From Candidatus Omnitrophota bacterium (GTDB taxonomy: Bacteria > Omnitrophota > Gorgyraeia > Gygaellales > Profunditerraquicolaceae), in the NCBI GenBank assembly GCA_030693145.1, contig JAUYBI010000063.1:1-46997 (forward strand): a DNA stretch of 46,997 bases, read 5' to 3'. Both the position numbers and the translations under genes were made by a program. The notes under the pieces were generated by a model, which searched no databases, had not been told where the DNA came from, and saw only the letters and a list, made by a program, of their open reading frames with translations. Below are positions 767-46,815 of this stretch, piece by piece. Positions within the stretch are counted from its first letter, which is position 1, and every line of letters begins with the position of its first letter.

Positions 767-917
767 TAGGAGAGACTTTTTTGGTAAGCGATGGGCAGGA
801 TGTGTCTATTTTTCTTGCTTTAGATTCTGGAAAAATAGAAACGTTCCCTGTTCCCATCAGGAATTTGCTTGGGTGGAAGGCTCCGTTTACGCTGGAGGAG
901 GGGGTTAGGGAGACGGT
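767..917 (+). repeat. Island repeat copy 1: A-palindrome plus epimerase 3' tail
   Basis: This 151-bp unit matches 2476-2626 at all but about five positions. It contains codons for GETFLVSDGQDVS, a region typical of sugar-nucleotide epimerases of the SDR family. Then comes a decayed A-palindrome (about 793-848; arms GTCTATTTTTC and GAAAAATAGAAAC), then codons for LGWKAPFTLEEGVRETV, the usual C-terminal block of the same epimerases. The middle of the epimerase C-terminus is missing and the palindrome is in its place. A short open frame (748-936) crosses it but is a relic and not counted as a gene. Confidence 0.8.
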
Positions 918-2402: not shown

Positions 2403-2639
2403 AATCGGCGCGGTTTTCTTTATGTTGGGAATTTGGTGGATGCGATTGGTGTTTGCGTTGAACATCCCAAGGCAGTAGGAGAGACTTTTTTGGTAAGCGA
2501 TGGGCAGGATGTGTCTATTTTTCTTGCTTTAGATTCTGGAAAAATAGAAACGTTCCCTGTTCCCATCAGGAATTTGCTTGGGTGGAAGGCGCCGTGGACG
2601 CTGGAAGAGGGGATTAGGGAGACGGTAAATGGCATATAA
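2403..2639 (+). pseudogene. Fragment of a sugar-nucleotide epimerase (SDR) gene, longest copy
   Basis: In one frame from about 2403 the sequence reads NRRGFLYVGNLVDAIG, then VCVEHPKAVGETFLVSDGQ, then the A-palindrome, then LGWKAPWTLEEGIRETV. The block YVGNLVDAI...FLVSDG...LGWKP.FTLEEG.RET is the C-terminal half of a UDP-glucose-epimerase-like SDR enzyme, with the segment between DVS and LGW lost and replaced by the palindrome. It is the longest of four copies and has no start codon context, catalytic domain or cofactor motif. It is treated as a gene remnant. Epimerases of this type often precede a phosphoglycosyl transferase such as the one at 6022, so the remnant may be the old neighbour of that gene. 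Confidence 0.75.
2476..2626 (+). repeat. Island repeat copy 2: A-palindrome plus epimerase 3' tail
   Basis: Same 151-bp unit as 767-917, with about five mismatches, all in the last third. The palindrome arms lie at about 2502-2557. It closes the AbiE module and opens the first ATPase module. Confidence 0.85.
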
Positions 2640-3877: not shown

Positions 3878-3966
3878 AGGGGACGCGTCTATTTTTCTTG
3901 CTTTAGATTCTTGAAAAATAGAAACGTCCCCTGTTCCTTTTACGCGGGAAGAGGGGGTTGGGGAGA
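3878..3966 (+). repeat. Island repeat copy 3: A-palindrome plus short epimerase tail
   Basis: The palindrome spans 3878-3932 (arms AGGGGACG and CGTCCCCT at the ends, CTATTTTTC and GAAAAATAG inside). It is followed by TTTTACGC and GGAAGAGGGGGTTGGGGAGA, which is the FTLEEGVRET coding block of the epimerase tail. The sequence between palindrome and tail present in copies 1 and 2 is missing here. The 36 bp after the palindrome are identical to copy 4. Confidence 0.85.
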
Positions 3967-5252: not shown

Positions 5253-5340
5253 GGGGACGGTTCTGTTTTTCTGGAAAAAGTACCGGGAAAAACAGAACCG
5301 TCCCCTGTTCCTTTTACGCGGGAAGAGGGGGTTGGGGAGA
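5253..5340 (+). repeat. Island repeat copy 4: A-palindrome plus short epimerase tail
   Basis: The palindrome runs 5253-5305, with arms GGGGACGGTTCTGTTTTTC and GGGAAAAACAGAACCGTCCCC that pair almost perfectly; the inner A-to-G/T-to-C change occurs on both arms relative to copy 3. The tail (to 5340) is the same FTLEEGVRET block as in copy 3. The rest of the gap 5208-5406 holds the promoter of the next module. Confidence 0.85.
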
Positions 5341-5995: not shown

Positions 5996-6015
5996 GGGGC
6001 CGTTTCTATTTTTTC
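5996..6015 (+). repeat. Left half of an A-palindrome
   Basis: GGGGCCGTTTCTATTTTTTC resembles the left arm of the A family. No right arm follows. It ends 7 bp before the sugar transferase start, and the only Shine-Dalgarno-like bases (AAGGA, 6016-6020) are unusually close to the ATG. Confidence 0.6.
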
Positions 6016-6021
6016 AAGGAT

Positions 6022-6651
6022 ATGGTAAAACGAATTTTTGATTTAATTTTAGCTTTGGTTTTAATAGTTCTATTGAGTATTCCGATGTTAGCTATCGCCG
6101 TATTCATTAAGCTAATGCAAAATAGGGGACGGAAAATAGGGGACGCGTCTATTTTTCTTGAGCCTAGCGTTACTAGAAAAATAGAAACGTCCCCTGTTTT
6201 ATTTTGGACGGATCGGGTGGGGGTGAATAACGCCATTTTTAAAATGGCTAAATTCAGGACGATGAAATTAAACACGCCTCAGGTAGCCACACATTTAATG
6301 GAAAATCCTGAAAGATATTTGATTCCCGGAGGAGAGTTTTTACGTAAATACAGCCTTGATGAGTTACCGCAGTTATTTAACGTTTTAAAGGGGGATATGA
6401 GCTTTGTGGGGCCACGGCCGGCATTGTTTAACCAAGATGACCTAATAGCGTTACGCACTAAGAAAAATATCCATACCTTGACTCCAGGAGTTACAGGTTG
6501 GGCACAGGTAAACGGAAGAGATGACTTGGCGATACTGGAAAAGGTTGCTTTTGACGAATATTACCTCAAGCATCGCTCCTTTGTCTTCGATCTTTATATT
6601 ATCCTTTTGACCGCGATAAAGGTGGTGAGAAGGGAAGGCGTTAGGCATTAG
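6022..6651 (+). CDS. Bacterial sugar transferase (monotopic phosphoglycosyl transferase) with an in-frame palindrome insert
   Basis: The product has 209 residues. A hydrophobic N-terminal helix (about 8-32) is followed by the catalytic region: RVGVNN, FKMAKFRTM, YSLDELPQLFNVLKGDMSFV, GPRPAL and TPGVTGWAQVNGRD. These are the standard motifs of enzymes that move a sugar-phosphate to undecaprenyl phosphate and start repeat-unit synthesis at the inner membrane. Between LMQ and PVLFW, where relatives have only a residue or two, there are about 24 extra residues (34-59), encoded by the A-palindrome at 6122-6195. The frame is kept. The stop codon TAG lies inside another palindrome half (6649-6663). 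Whether the protein is active with the insert, which falls between the membrane helix and the catalytic part, is unknown. Confidence 0.85.
   Translation: MVKRIFDLILALVLIVLLSIPMLAIAVFIKLMQNRGRKIGDASIFLEPSVTRKIETSPVLFWTDRVGVNNAIFKMAKFRTMKLNTPQVATHLMENPERYLIPGGEFLRKYSLDELPQLFNVLKGDMSFVGPRPALFNQDDLIALRTKKNIHTLTPGVTGWAQVNGRDDLAILEKVAFDEYYLKHRSFVFDLYIILLTAIKVVRREGVRH
6122..6195 (+). repeat. A-palindrome inserted in frame in the sugar transferase gene
   Basis: The palindrome is 6138-6195, with arms AGGGGACGCGTCTATTTTTC and GAAAAATAGAAACGTCCCCT pairing at 18 of 20 positions. A partial duplicate of its left end (ATAGGGGACGG) lies at 6122-6132. It is read through as coding sequence without a stop or frameshift. 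Confidence 0.85.
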
Positions 6652-6663
6652 AAACGTCCCCTT
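6649..6663 (+). repeat. Right half of an A-palindrome supplying the stop codon
   Basis: TAGAAACGTCCCCTT matches the right arm of the A family. Its first three bases are the stop codon of the sugar transferase gene. Confidence 0.6.
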
Positions 6664-23144: not shown

Positions 23145-23240
23145 AAAAGGGGACGGTTCTATTTTTCTTTAAGGCATAAAAGTAGGGCAGGTTTAAACCT
23201 GCCCTACTGTAAGAAATAAAAATAGAACCGTCCCCTTTTA
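23145..23240 (+). repeat. Nested palindromes: B element inside an A element
   Basis: The outer A arms are AAAAGGGGACGGTTCTATTT (from 23145) and its partner ending AGAACCGTCCCCTTTT (to 23239). Between them lies a perfect 28-bp B palindrome at 23181-23208 (AGTAGGGCAGG, then TTTAAA, then CCTGCCCTACT). The whole stretch fills the gap between two genes and could act as a terminator or RNA hairpin. The ribosome binding site of the next gene (AAAAGGAGAA, 23241-23250) starts directly after it. Confidence 0.9.
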
Positions 23241-25064: not shown

Positions 25065-25846
25065 ATAATATTATGAAAAAAATATCTATATTCTTATCTT
25101 CACTGGTCATTTTTCTGGGAGTTTTTTATTTTTTTTGGATTTCCCCAAAGTATACTACGCCAATTTTGATGTATCACAGTATTAGCTATGAAAAGGGCAC
25201 TTTTTTTGTTACTCCGGAGAATCTGCTTAAGCAGATGGAATATATTAAGAGAAACGGCTATGAGGTGATCACTTTAGATGAATTGGCCAGGAGTATTAAA
25301 GATAAAAGGCGGCTTAAAAGAAATAAGGTTGTTATTACTCTTGATGACGGATACGAAGATAATTTTATATATGCCTATCCGGTTTTTAAGGAGTTTGGTT
25401 TTCCGGCTACGATATTTCTCCCCACGGATTTTATGGGGAGAAAAGGTTTTTTAAATTGGGATGAGGTTAGGATTATGTCTAAAAACAGAATATATTTTGG
25501 CGGGCATACCAAGACTCATTTTTATCTTGGGCTTGCGCAGGATACAGGAGCCGCGCGTGAGGAAATAGCCGGGCCTAAGAAAGCAATTGAGCGGGAAATA
25601 GGCGCCCCGGCGGATTATTTTTGTTACCCTGCCGGCGGTTTTAACGAAATCGTCAAAAAATTAGTTAAAGAGGCAGGTTATAAGGGCGCCTGTACTACGA
25701 ATCGAGGGGCGGATAGGTTTAATCGTGATGTTTATGAACTCAAAAGAGTCAAACCGACTAATTTCGACATGGTTAAACCTTTTTCCTTCCGGTTAAAGCT
25801 TTCAGGGTATTATAATTTATTCAGAAGCAAGAAAGATTCATATTAA
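25061..25846 (+). CDS. Polysaccharide deacetylase (NodB-like), membrane-anchored
   Basis: The product has 261 residues. One N-terminal membrane segment (about 5-26) is followed by ILMYHSIS, then the catalytic VVITLDDGYEDNF (aspartate pair of NodB motif 1), GGHTKTHFYLG (metal histidines of motif 2), and FCYPAGGFNE (motif 3). Such enzymes remove N-acetyl groups from polysaccharide or peptidoglycan sugars in the periplasm. The start at 25061 overlaps the GT2 stop; the ATG at 25073 is an alternative. It is the last gene of the polysaccharide block before the C-repeat island. Confidence 0.85.
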   Translation: MNNIMKKISIFLSSLVIFLGVFYFFWISPKYTTPILMYHSISYEKGTFFVTPENLLKQMEYIKRNGYEVITLDELARSIKDKRRLKRNKVVITLDDGYEDNFIYAYPVFKEFGFPATIFLPTDFMGRKGFLNWDEVRIMSKNRIYFGGHTKTHFYLGLAQDTGAAREEIAGPKKAIEREIGAPADYFCYPAGGFNEIVKKLVKEAGYKGACTTNRGADRFNRDVYELKRVKPTNFDMVKPFSFRLKLSGYYNLFRSKKDSY

Positions 25847-28675: not shown

Positions 28676-28690
28676 CATAGACTGTCTATG
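28673..28690 (+). repeat. Partial C-family repeat
   Basis: TAACATAGACTGTCTATG matches the right end of the C family (as at 33223-33240). It contains the stop codon of the ATPase and the start codon of the next gene. Confidence 0.65.
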
Positions 28691-29671
28691 AATTTTAAAA
28701 ATATACTTGTAATACGCAGTGACCGGTTTGGAGAGTTTCTGCTGAATATCCCGGCAATGCGCGCGCTGAAAAAATTATATCCACAGGCAAAACTTACCTT
28801 GGCGGTAAATTCCGCGGTTTGCGAGTTAGCAGGCGCGGTTGAATGTGTTGATGCGGTGGTGGTTTGGGATGAAGTTAAGGGAAATTTAAGGAAGCATAAG
28901 TTTGGCCTCGGTGTTGTTTTAAACCCCACTAAAGAAGCGCATTGGGCTGTTTTTTGGGCCGGGATTCCCGCGCGCGTTGGCTATGACAGGAAATGGGGAT
29001 TTTTGCTGACGCATAAATTAAAAGATACTAAACACCAAGGCACGCGGCATGAAGTGGATTGTAATTTGGAGTTGGTGGGGTTGTTGGGGGCGAAGAATGA
29101 CGAGATTGCTTCGGCGCCTGCGGCGCCTGCGGCGCCTCGCAATGACACAGAGTGGCTCATGCTTCCTCGCGATGACAAGTATGAATTTTTAGCGGGGGCG
29201 ATTGCGATTCATCCGTTTACCAGCGACCCGGTTAAACAGTGGCCGGCTGAGAGGTTTGGGGAGTTAGCGCGGAGAATTATGGAATATCGGGGACAGTCCC
29301 CTGCGGGGACAGTCCCCTCTAAGGTGAAGGTTGTGTTTGTGGGGAGAACTGAAGATCGGGGACAGTCCCCTTCGGGGACAGTCCCCTCTAGTGATGGTAT
29401 TATTAATATGATCAATAAAACTTCTTTGGTGGAATTAGCGGCATTATTGAAACGCTGCTCTTTGCTTATTTCCTGCGATAGCGGGCCAATGCATTTGGCC
29501 GCGGCTGTGGAGACGTCGGTAATCGCGTTGTTCAGGAATGATCTGCCGGGCAAAACCGCGCAACGCTGGGGGCCGTGGGGAAATGGCCATTTGGTAATAG
29601 AGAAATCAAATTTAAATGCTATAACCGTGGATGAAGTATTTAATGAGGTAAAGGAGAGATTGAATAGATGA
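28688..29671 (+). CDS. GT9 heptosyltransferase-like glycosyltransferase with three in-frame repeat inserts
   Basis: The product has 327 residues. The GT9 marks are ILVIRSDRFGEFLLNIPAMR at the N-terminus, AIHPFTSDPVKQWPAERFGE in the donor-binding half and SCDSGPMHLAAAV near the end. Three segments do not belong to the fold: residues about 138-154 (D-family repeat, ASAPAAPAAPRND), 201-211 (RGQSPAGTVPS) and 224-234 (RGQSPSGTVPS); the last two are coded by double GGGGACAGTCCCC hairpins. All keep the frame. GT9 enzymes add heptose or related sugars to lipid A core. Without the inserts the core would be shorter than the usual about 340 residues. The start overlaps a partial C repeat; there is no ribosome binding site. 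Confidence 0.8.
   Translation: MNFKNILVIRSDRFGEFLLNIPAMRALKKLYPQAKLTLAVNSAVCELAGAVECVDAVVVWDEVKGNLRKHKFGLGVVLNPTKEAHWAVFWAGIPARVGYDRKWGFLLTHKLKDTKHQGTRHEVDCNLELVGLLGAKNDEIASAPAAPAAPRNDTEWLMLPRDDKYEFLAGAIAIHPFTSDPVKQWPAERFGELARRIMEYRGQSPAGTVPSKVKVVFVGRTEDRGQSPSGTVPSSDGIINMINKTSLVELAALLKRCSLLISCDSGPMHLAAAVETSVIALFRNDLPGKTAQRWGPWGNGHLVIEKSNLNAITVDEVFNEVKERLNR
29098..29147 (+). repeat. D-family repeat inside the GT9 gene, with a three-fold 9-bp expansion
   Basis: GACGAGATTGCTTCG opens and CTCGCAATGACAC closes the unit. Between them GCGCCTGCG is repeated in tandem. A shorter related piece (CTTCCTCGCGATGACAAG) lies at about 29162-29179. Confidence 0.75.
29289..29386 (+). repeat. Two double GGGGACAGTCCCC hairpins inside the GT9 gene
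   Basis: GGGGACAGTCCCC occurs at 29289-29301 and 29305-29317, and again at 29358-29370 and 29374-29386. Each pair forms a hairpin with a 3-nt loop. Such units are a known kind of REP-like sequence; here both are in frame. Confidence 0.9.
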
Positions 29672-33189: not shown

Positions 33190-33240
33190 ATAATTGTTTT
33201 GTATCTCAAAGAGATTGAGATAGTTACATAGACTGTCTAC
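33190..33240 (+). repeat. C-family repeat directly before the aminotransferase start
   Basis: Fills the whole gap between the two genes. It ends with TAGACTGTCTAC at 33229-33240, and the next ATG is at 33243. No ribosome binding site is seen. Confidence 0.8.
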
Positions 33241-35641: not shown

Positions 35642-35692
35642 ATATTTGTTTTGTATCTTAAAGAGTTTGAGATAGTTACATAGACTGTCTAC
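35641..35692 (+). repeat. C-family repeat before the MGDG-synthase-like gene
   Basis: About 52 bp, closest to 33190-33240, ending TAGACTGTCTAC. The ATG of the next gene follows 4 bp later and no ribosome binding site is visible. Confidence 0.8.
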
Positions 35693-38600: not shown

Positions 38601-38626
38601 GTAGGGTGGGTTTAAACCCACCCTAC
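38601..38626. repeat. B-family palindrome between priA and fmt
   Basis: Perfect 26-bp palindrome, GTAGGGTGGG, TTTAAA, CCCACCCTAC. It could work as a terminator on either strand, though no long T-run follows. Confidence 0.9.
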
Positions 38627-38646
38627 TAAATAGGGGTTAGGAAGAG

Positions 38647-39594
38647 ATGAGGATAATATTCTTTGGCAGCGCGCATTTTGCGGTTCCTGCATTAGAAGCT
38701 TTGATAAAAAGCAGGCATGAGCTGGTTTGTGTGGTTACCCAGCCGGATAAACAAAAAGGCAGGCACCTGCAGGTTACCGGCACGGATGTTAAAAGCACGG
38801 CTGTTTTGGCGAAACTTAAAATATTCCAGCCGGAAAATATCAAATCCAAAGAAAGCGTAAAATTTTTAAAAGGCCTGGATGCGGATCTTTTTGTGATTGT
38901 GGCATATGGCCAGATATTTTCCCAGGAAGTTTTAGATATTCCGAAGATTATGCCGATTAATATCCATGCTTCGCTTCTGCCGCGTTACCGGGGGGCGGCT
39001 CCGATTAACTGGGCGATAATTAACGCCGAGAAGAAGGCCGGGGTGAGTATTATGTATGTGAGCCTTAAAATGGACTCCGGCCCGGTTATTCTGCAAAAGG
39101 AAACAAAAATTGAAGAGAAGGATACCGCGGTAAGCCTTGAGGAGAAGCTGCGTTATGCGGGGGCGGAGCTGTTAATAGACGCGCTGAAGATAATTGATAG
39201 CAGGAATTATCGTTTATTAGAACAGGATGAAGATAAGGTAATTATCGCGCCAAAACTGAAAAAAGAAGACGGCTTAATCGACTGGGCTGTTCCTGCCGTG
39301 AATATACATAATCAGGTAAGAGGGGTCCTGCCCTGGCCAGGGGCATTTACGGGTTATCGCGGTAAAATACTTAAAATATTCTGGACGGAGGTTTTGCCGT
39401 TATTCTCAGTTCACAAGCCTGTGCCCGGGGAAGTGGTGAGGGCGGACAAGCATGGTATTGTGGTGGCTTGCGCCAGGGGTTTCTTAGAAATTAAAGAGCT
39501 GCAGCTGGAAGCGGGAAAGCGTATGTCCGCGCAGAATTTTATCATCGGACACAAGTTGATTGCCGGGGAAGTTTTAGGGAAGAGAATACAGTAG
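38647..39594 (+). CDS. fmt: Methionyl-tRNA formyltransferase
   Basis: The product has 315 residues, normal for Fmt. IIFFGSAHFAVPALEALIKS starts the formyl-transfer domain, the folate-binding and catalytic part reads INIHASLLPRYRGAAPINWA with the later M-D-S-G-P loop, and the C-terminal tRNA-binding domain starts around residue 205. It formylates initiator Met-tRNA. AGGAAGAG lies directly before the ATG. Its stop codon TAG lies inside a B-family palindrome (39588-39619). The order priA-fmt is common in bacteria. Confidence 0.93.
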   Translation: MRIIFFGSAHFAVPALEALIKSRHELVCVVTQPDKQKGRHLQVTGTDVKSTAVLAKLKIFQPENIKSKESVKFLKGLDADLFVIVAYGQIFSQEVLDIPKIMPINIHASLLPRYRGAAPINWAIINAEKKAGVSIMYVSLKMDSGPVILQKETKIEEKDTAVSLEEKLRYAGAELLIDALKIIDSRNYRLLEQDEDKVIIAPKLKKEDGLIDWAVPAVNIHNQVRGVLPWPGAFTGYRGKILKIFWTEVLPLFSVHKPVPGEVVRADKHGIVVACARGFLEIKELQLEAGKRMSAQNFIIGHKLIAGEVLGKRIQ

Positions 39595-39704
39595 GGGAGG
39601 TTTAAACCTCCCCTACTGTTGAGAGTAGGGTTTATTAACAATAGTAGGGTGGGTTTAAACCCACCCTACGGAAAGTCGGCAGGGTTCTTTAAACCTCCCC
39701 TACT
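39588..39704. repeat. Cluster of B-family palindromes after fmt
   Basis: A perfect 32-bp palindrome at 39588-39619 (GGAG variant), a 26-bp one at 39644-39669 (GTGG variant), and a half element at about 39681-39704 (GGAG side) follow each other. The fmt stop codon is in the first. A lone AGTAGGGTTTATTAAC piece at 39624-39639 is another remnant. Confidence 0.9.
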
Positions 39705-39710
39705 GAAAAC

Positions 39711-39770
39711 CCTACTGAACTCTACTGAACTCTACTGAACTTTACTGAACTCTACTGAACTCTACTGAAA
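39711..39770 (+). repeat. Tandem 10-bp repeat before galT
   Basis: Six units of the type TCTACTGAAC follow each other without gaps, with single-base changes in three of them. The repeated word contains CTACTG, the outer end of the B palindrome, so the array probably grew from a B element. It ends 5 bp before the -35 box of the galT promoter. Confidence 0.9.
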
Positions 39771-39775
39771 ATTTG

Positions 39776-39803
39776 TTGCAACTTTTAGGAGTTCTGTTAT
39801 AAT
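39776..39803 (+). promoter_or_regulatory. Promoter of the galT pair (leaderless)
   Basis: TTGCAA at 39776-39781 and perfect TATAAT at 39798-39803 with a 16-bp spacer. The ATG is at 39812, 8 nt beyond the -10 box, without a ribosome binding site. Confidence 0.7.
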
Positions 39804-41849: not shown

Positions 41850-41877
41850 AGTAGGTGACGTTTAAACGTCACCTACT
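41850..41877. repeat. B-family palindrome before gapA (TGAC variant)
   Basis: Perfect 28-bp palindrome: AGTAGG, TGAC, GTTTAAAC, GTCA, CCTACT. The inner four bases differ from all other copies, on both arms. Confidence 0.92.
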
Positions 41878-41895
41878 GATAGAGGTAAGCAAAGT

Positions 41896-43009: not shown

Positions 43010-43105
43010 ATATTTGTTTTGTATCCTAATGAGTTTGATATAGTTACATACACTGTCTACAAGGGTGTAGTGTCATTGCGGGGAGTGTAGCGACGAAGCA
43101 ATCAA
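43010..43105 (+). repeat. C-family repeat followed by a reversed D-family repeat
   Basis: The C copy spans about 43010-43062 (two changes in the ending, TACACTGTCTAC). The D copy, in the opposite orientation (GTCATTGCGGGGAG ... GACGAAGCAATC), spans 43072-43105. Together they fill the gap between gapA and pgk, up to 4 bp before the pgk ATG. Confidence 0.8.
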
Positions 43106-45480: not shown

Positions 45481-45550
45481 ACCCGGTTTAAACAGTAGGG
45501 TGGGTTTAAACCCACCCTACTGTTAATAAGGGGAGGTTTAAACCTCCCCT
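45481..45550. repeat. Two B-family palindromes between secG and the MFS gene
   Basis: A half piece GGTTTAAAC (45485-45493), a perfect 32-bp palindrome at 45492-45523 (GTGG variant), and a 22-bp core at 45529-45550 (GGAG variant) followed by CTACTTTATTTTT. The last could act as a rho-independent terminator for the gapA-secG operon. Confidence 0.85.
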
Positions 45551-45564
45551 ACTTTATTTTTGAT

Positions 45565-46730: not shown

Positions 46731-46815
46731 GGGGACGGTTCTATTTTTCTATAGTAGGGTGGGTTTAAACCCTATTTTTCAATAGTAGGGTGGGTTTAAA
46801 CCCACCCCACTATTG
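46731..46815 (+). repeat. A half element plus two B-family elements
   Basis: GGGGACGGTTCTATTTTTCT (46731-46750) is an A left arm. A cut-off B element (GTAGGGTGGGTTTAAACCC) at 46754-46772 interrupts it, CTATTTTTC (46773-46781) repeats part of the A arm, and a nearly complete B element follows at about 46784-46815 with one mismatch. Confidence 0.85.

Follow-up and report, generated by a model that had tools for sequence, protein, structure and literature searches.

The window analysed here, a stretch of 46,997 nucleotides of DNA from an uncultured Candidatus Omnitrophota bacterium, carries on its forward strand a sugar-transferase gene (6022..6651) whose 209-residue product falls in the Bac_transf family (PF02397, E 1e-53). 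The traits that mark this product as a PglC-like monotopic phosphoglycosyl transferase are (i) the Bac_transf domain, (ii) a re-entrant helix, and (iii) the DELPQ and GPRP motifs. Its AlphaFold model (mean pLDDT 88, pTM 0.82) matches the fold of PglC structures 8g1n/8e37 at E ~1e-15 (Foldseek, predicted model; E 3e-15 for 8g1n).

Within this gene lies an imperfect palindrome of 56 bp, GGGGACGCGTCTATTTTTCTTGAGCCTAGCGTTACTAGAAAAATAGAAACGTCCCC, at 6139-6194, which lengthens to ~68 bp if AAAATA (6133-6138) and TGTTTT (6195-6200) are included. Its arms are GGGGACGCGTCTATTTTT and AAAAATAGAAACGTCCCC; palindromic features are given here without strand. A partial repeat of the element end, AAAATAGGGGACGG, stands to its left (6119..6132) and is found in a second species, G009, as well. 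The sequence-only reading had described a 58-bp palindrome with a partial left duplicate at 6122-6195, encoding about 24 residues in frame without a stop or frame change. That description stands, with measured values of 56 bp and 25 codons (net +22) and with ORF 6022-6651 open across the palindrome.

The symmetry of the element exceeds what the gene's composition yields: of its 28 symmetric positions 20 pair, whereas 200 shuffled versions of the gene gave 14.7 on average and 18 at most. The strand also folds far better than shuffled sequence (z = -5.3 as DNA, -5.8 as RNA) into a stem of ~18 bp with one 2x2 internal loop and a terminal loop of 16-20 nt or more. The element ends follow the pattern AAACTA/AAAATA-GGGG...CCCC-T(A/G)GTTT or TATTTT. 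No known RNA family was found among the matches to the hairpin, the single hit being a sub-threshold chance match. An integron attC reading, judged by eye, was dropped because the RYYYAAC/GTTRRRY boxes are absent.

The insert borders, 6118..6192 on the forward strand, were set by aligning the gene to congeners that have an empty site (G002, G006, G014, G015, G016, and G023), to the shorter insert in G009, and to homologues in other phyla. Codons 33-57, 25 in all, replace TCT AAG GGG. In the six empty-site congeners the protein has 187-189 residues and reads KLMSKGPAIFWTDRVG or a close variant (KLMSKGPAIFW or close variants), while the window protein reads KLM-QNRGRKIGDASIFLEPSVTRKIETS-PVLFWTDRVG; relatives free of the palindrome thus lack the added residues. 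A search of related genomes for the same insert finds it in G009, together with the same left repeat, in a form that is 36 bp shorter and still in frame (198 residues). Two separate assemblies carry the insertion, so an assembly artefact is very unlikely. The insert bases shared by the window genome (G000) and G009 number 45 and show one difference, compared with 18% difference in the gene. This likeness might suggest horizontal exchange of the insert between the two, but a tree grouping both genes is not rejected (p-AU 0.2), and the shared insert may reflect either descent or short-tract exchange. Neither the inserted peptide nor the insert length is conserved between the two species. In the AlphaFold model, the insert forms a low-confidence loop between the re-entrant helix and the first strand, and the rest of the PglC-like fold is confident.

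It is hardly probable that the insert serves, as a hairpin in the mRNA, to slow translation past the membrane helix, with the peptide as a by-product. A strong RNA hairpin is predicted in both species (-35.5 and -19.7 kcal/mol, z ~-5.8), and a 13-bp stem still forms in G009 despite the loss of the left arm and loop. However, such folding is common to any palindrome, and six congeners manage without one.

Judged from substitution rates, the sugar-transferase gene is under purifying selection. With the insert removed, dN/dS is 0.05-0.14 (~0.1) for pairs that include the window genome or G009, and uninterrupted pairs are alike. All family-invariant residues, including DELPQ and GPRP, are kept in a 40-sequence alignment. 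Both insert-bearing proteins lack two near-invariant residues of the SxGP turn, Ser33 and Gly57, and because of this loss enzyme activity could be altered. A gene that is dead or dying, with the insert as merely one lesion, would account for the loss of these two residues and would suit a region with many gene remnants upstream. Yet the frame is maintained in two species at two lengths, the invariant motifs are intact, the genome holds no second paralogue of the same type at E 1e-3, and the low dN/dS speaks against a pseudogene; decay of the gene is accordingly a most improbable account. The 209-residue protein probably still works, and the added peptide may be close to neutral ballast.

The palindrome belongs to a dispersed hairpin family. 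In the 1.8-Mb genome, half-sites of the hairpin arm occur 128 times forward and 119 times in reverse (247), against 2 and 1 for a reversed control pattern; the abundance is far beyond chance genome-wide and corresponds to roughly a hundred hairpins. Two forms of the element exist, a symmetric one with GGGGACGGTTCTATTTTT on both arms and an asymmetric one (GGGGACGCG... and ...AAACGTCCCC), the latter being the form of the in-gene copy. The usual size is 53-58 bp. Loops vary, at least 10 of them hold a nested second palindrome around GGTTTAAACC, and tandem half elements are frequent. The survey of 367 kb lists 71 paired hits, a few of them nested readings of a single place; the majority lie between genes or at gene ends. 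Half-site counts range from 0 to 195 among 26 congeners, and the distribution of the motif is patchy across the phylum. The family is thus a short palindrome in many dispersed, mainly intergenic copies, as is typical of REP/TIR-type repeats.

The window holds further members of the family. An asymmetric copy lies at 3879..3931 and a symmetric one at 5253..5305, diverged copies occur within epimerase remnants at 796..848 and 2505..2557, and a copy at 23149..23235 has a second palindrome of the GGTTTAAACC type nested in its loop. A half copy, GGGGCCGTTTCTATTTTT, sits just upstream of the gene (5996..6013). At the 3′ end, a remnant right arm, AGAAACGTCCCC (6650..6661), supplies with its first two bases the end of the TAG stop codon; this is all that the window retains where G006 has a complete palindrome. 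The spacer after the sugar-transferase stop holds the GGGGAC palindrome in G006, G009, and G014 and a different repeat (GATTGCTTCGTCG...CTCGCAATGAC) in G002 and G023 (L120, L126), and is therefore a landing place for several repeat families.

The first 6000 nucleotides of the window form a toxin-antitoxin/defence cassette array. Similar arrays occur at L061-L065 (contigs C53, C56, C58, C64, and C41), L121, and L124, within exopolysaccharide loci, and their cassettes include AbiEi/AbiEii, DUF4143 ATPases, MazF/PemK, RhuM, YhcG/DUF1016, Bro-N, and AlbA_2. Between successive cassettes lie recurring fragments from the 3′ part of a sugar-nucleotide epimerase gene; these vary in their start points and end mostly near the epimerase stop. 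On C53 and C58, the separators consist of the palindrome and a second repeat near an EPS-associated MarR gene, and an IS110-family transposase gene (L062:90-1151) marks the edge of one array. The palindrome was considered as the recombination site of these arrays and rejected. From junction to junction, the epimerase flanks are no less similar than the palindrome (95% vs 94%), and some junctions are palindrome-free, so recombination within the epimerase remnants suffices.

Other repeats occur in and beyond the window. The second repeat, of 44 nt (GTTTTGTA(A/T)C...ATTACGTACACTGTCTA), has 17 exact-pattern places vs 0 in the control and marks gene boundaries in the polysaccharide cluster and in the cassette arrays. 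It lies at 33196-33239, 35648-35691, and 43016-43059 of the window, with related copies near 25846, 27086, and 28666, and on contigs C53, C56, C58, and C73. A third family, built around GGTTTAAACC (AGTAGGGTGGGTTTAAACCCACCCTACT) and often nested in GGGGAC-family loops, is represented at 23184-23211, 38603-38630, 39593-39673, 41853-41880, 45497-45556, and 46787-46814. A short tandem array of the 10-bp unit AACTCTACTG adjoins copies of this palindrome (39698-39777), and a 40-bp unit with GGGGACAGTCCCC palindromes occurs twice at 29282-29390, within ORF 28688-29671.

A candidate mobiliser of the GGGGAC hairpins is found in congeners. In G009 (C40) and G020 (C1), a Y1 (RAYT-type) transposase gene is flanked left and right by complete palindrome copies, and in G006 (C119) a Y1 gene has the palindrome, as a GGGACC variant, on one side, where the contig ends. 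The RAYT reading frame of G009 terminates inside its own downstream palindrome. An intact RAYT of the flanked subfamily is present in 4 genomes (G020, G009, G006, and G001), all with at least 33 half-sites; of the 23 others, 5 reach 20 or more (Fisher p 0.007, with shared ancestry ignored). Membership of the subfamily was assigned by pairwise identity (88, 60, 61, and 50%; next 43%) rather than by a tree. The RAYT copy of G004 has an internal stop, and that genome has 1 half-site; the RAYT gene of G001 adjoins another palindrome, GGGGACAGTCCCC. Together, the bracketing and the association with half-sites point to a RAYT-associated element, and by analogy with known systems this RAYT subfamily may move, or may once have moved, the hairpins. 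Counting against the RAYT reading, no RAYT of the flanked subfamily was found in the window genome, which is 94% complete. The genome's own Y1 genes were rejected as mobilisers, since none of the four is bracketed by the palindrome. One RAYT-type gene of this genome (L112:1181-1932, on C60) has 25-bp terminal inverted repeats ending in AGGGGACAGCTACC, and their GGGGAC end resembles the palindrome family.

The account that probably holds for the sugar-transferase gene is that a RAYT-associated, REP-like element landed in it in frame and was tolerated. A REP-like hairpin common in the genus would have entered the gene and been kept because it added a whole number of codons where the protein tolerates them, in the loop that joins the membrane helix to the catalytic part. 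Its movement would have been driven by a RAYT, as in the single-strand transposition of REP/RAYT and IS200/IS605 systems. The immediate source may have been a copy just 3′ of the same gene, as present in G006. In G006 the gene's stop is followed at once by a palindrome that matches the in-gene copy except at 1 of 56 nt, although dS between the two sugar-transferase genes is 0.75; within the window genome the next best match reaches 87%. Given this resemblance, transposition or template switching most likely links the in-gene copy to its neighbour. Three comparisons of filled and empty sites revealed no clean target-site duplication or fixed target, with flanks that have diverged.

The second of these routes, in which the palindrome was copied in from its neighbour by replication template switching or short-tract recombination starting at a microhomology, appears rather unlikely, though several features suit it. 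The donor-like copy in G006 lies 0.5 kb off with 55/56 identity, half copies flank the gene on both sides, and the element end CTAGGGGACG is similar to the host codons TCTAAGGGGCCGG. In addition, the left end of the element is duplicated, tandem half elements are often seen in the family, and no clean target-site duplication was seen. On the other hand, a second filled site, in an RND adaptor gene, has no such microhomology, and the genome-wide spread and the RAYT association require a transposition step, at least elsewhere.

Landing in frame is not confined to the sugar-transferase gene. A census of intragenic copies, covering the stretches around palindromes (~20% of the genome), yields three further in-frame copies, two of which have relatives with an empty site. 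One copy (C29:27458), lying where an RND adaptor lipoprotein gene encodes its signal peptide, is common to G006, is doubled by a nested palindrome and still in frame in G014, and has empty counterparts in G023, G026, G021, G022, and G003. The other copies lie in the adjoining TolC-like gene (C29:26109) and in a PLD-family protein gene (C29:18245), the latter copy being absent from the G008 homologue. Should translation begin at a later start codon, the two copies in signal-peptide regions could belong in part to the 5′ leader.

The sequence-only reading had raised the prospect of a general way of adding new peptide segments. In-frame entry of a repeat into a coding gene is borne out, with three more copies of the kind, yet as a general way the proposal is weak. 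Copies are mostly intergenic or at gene ends, the encoded peptide is not conserved, and the palindromes have no excess of open frames (2.42 of 6 per palindrome vs 2.32 of 6 in dinucleotide shuffles, with a shuffle range of 1.96-2.71). This lack of excess was the ground for rejecting a function of the hairpin as peptide donor. The fuller version of that idea, in which hairpins are selected for in-frame readability and the residues give the enzyme a useful new property, might draw on the four in-frame intragenic copies in the surveyed part, 3 of 4 in envelope or polysaccharide genes, and on retention of the insertion in two species. It is nevertheless very improbable, given that the reading frame of the element differs from gene to gene, that the peptide is halved in G009, and that the insert replaces near-invariant residues. 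Little more probable is a continuing supply of RAYT-driven in-frame insertions, nested ones included, that diversifies the surface machinery (sugar transferase, RND adaptor, TolC-like protein) rather than being merely tolerated. Tolerance after landing and selection against out-of-frame copies explain the data.

Rickettsia is an established case of genes with in-frame palindromes (PMC10969869), and intragenic in-frame palindromes outside Rickettsia have been published for the GTAG and CGTC REPs of several bacteria (PMC3733652), where REP arrays around EPS genes are also described in Thauera. The Omnitrophota element most resembles the RAYT-associated REPs and TIR repeats (REPtrons and TIRYTs; Di Nocera et al. 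2013, PMC3733652). These too are short palindromes interspersed mainly between genes and close to gene 3′ ends, with a patchy distribution among relatives; they form tandem and nested groups, adjoin Y1/RAYT genes, and sometimes lie in frame within genes. The Omnitrophota element departs from them in its longer stem and loop and in the location of the flanked RAYT, which is present in congeners and not in the window's own genome. GTAG REPs have an unpaired GTAG tetranucleotide at one end and a stem of 5-13 bp (PMC3733652 Table 1); no GTAG tag stands at the ends of the Omnitrophota element, and this identity was rejected. CGTC REPs, which lack an associated transposase, have a stem of 8-9 bp, a loop of 4-5 nt, and an unpaired CGTC end (PMC3733652). 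Intragenic copies of these are known and the letters CGTC occur in the Omnitrophota arm, but there they are paired, and identity with CGTC REPs was rejected on stem and loop sizes. MITEs are also small non-coding elements with terminal inverted repeats and many copies, whereas the present element is at or below their lower size limit and is almost wholly palindromic; at the three filled and empty sites compared, whose flanks have diverged, no clean target-site duplication was seen.

Like the Rickettsia palindromic elements (RPEs), the Omnitrophota hairpin is a palindrome of tens of bases that inserts in frame and leaves unrelated protein genes open. Unlike the RPEs of ~150 bp with a conserved encoded peptide (PMC10969869), it has 53-58 bp as a rule, is read in several frames without open-frame excess or a conserved peptide, and has another sequence, another phylum, and a candidate RAYT partner. 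The supposition of a different family in a host that is not Rickettsia-like is therefore correct as far as the RPEs described in PMC10969869 are concerned. A full-text literature search, its results judged by title and abstract, returned nothing that looks to concern such elements in Omnitrophota. The hairpin family and its host look new, and the phenomenon of in-frame palindromes is already known.

What the locus offers is a natural allelic series (empty, full, and shortened) of a mobile hairpin in a gene for what is probably a working enzyme, in a phylum far from Rickettsia. The series comes with a candidate mobilising enzyme whose gene is bracketed by the same hairpin. It makes two matters testable: whether a RAYT can act on a long hairpin that lacks the GTAG tag, and how a 22-residue insert at the membrane-catalytic junction affects a PglC-type enzyme.
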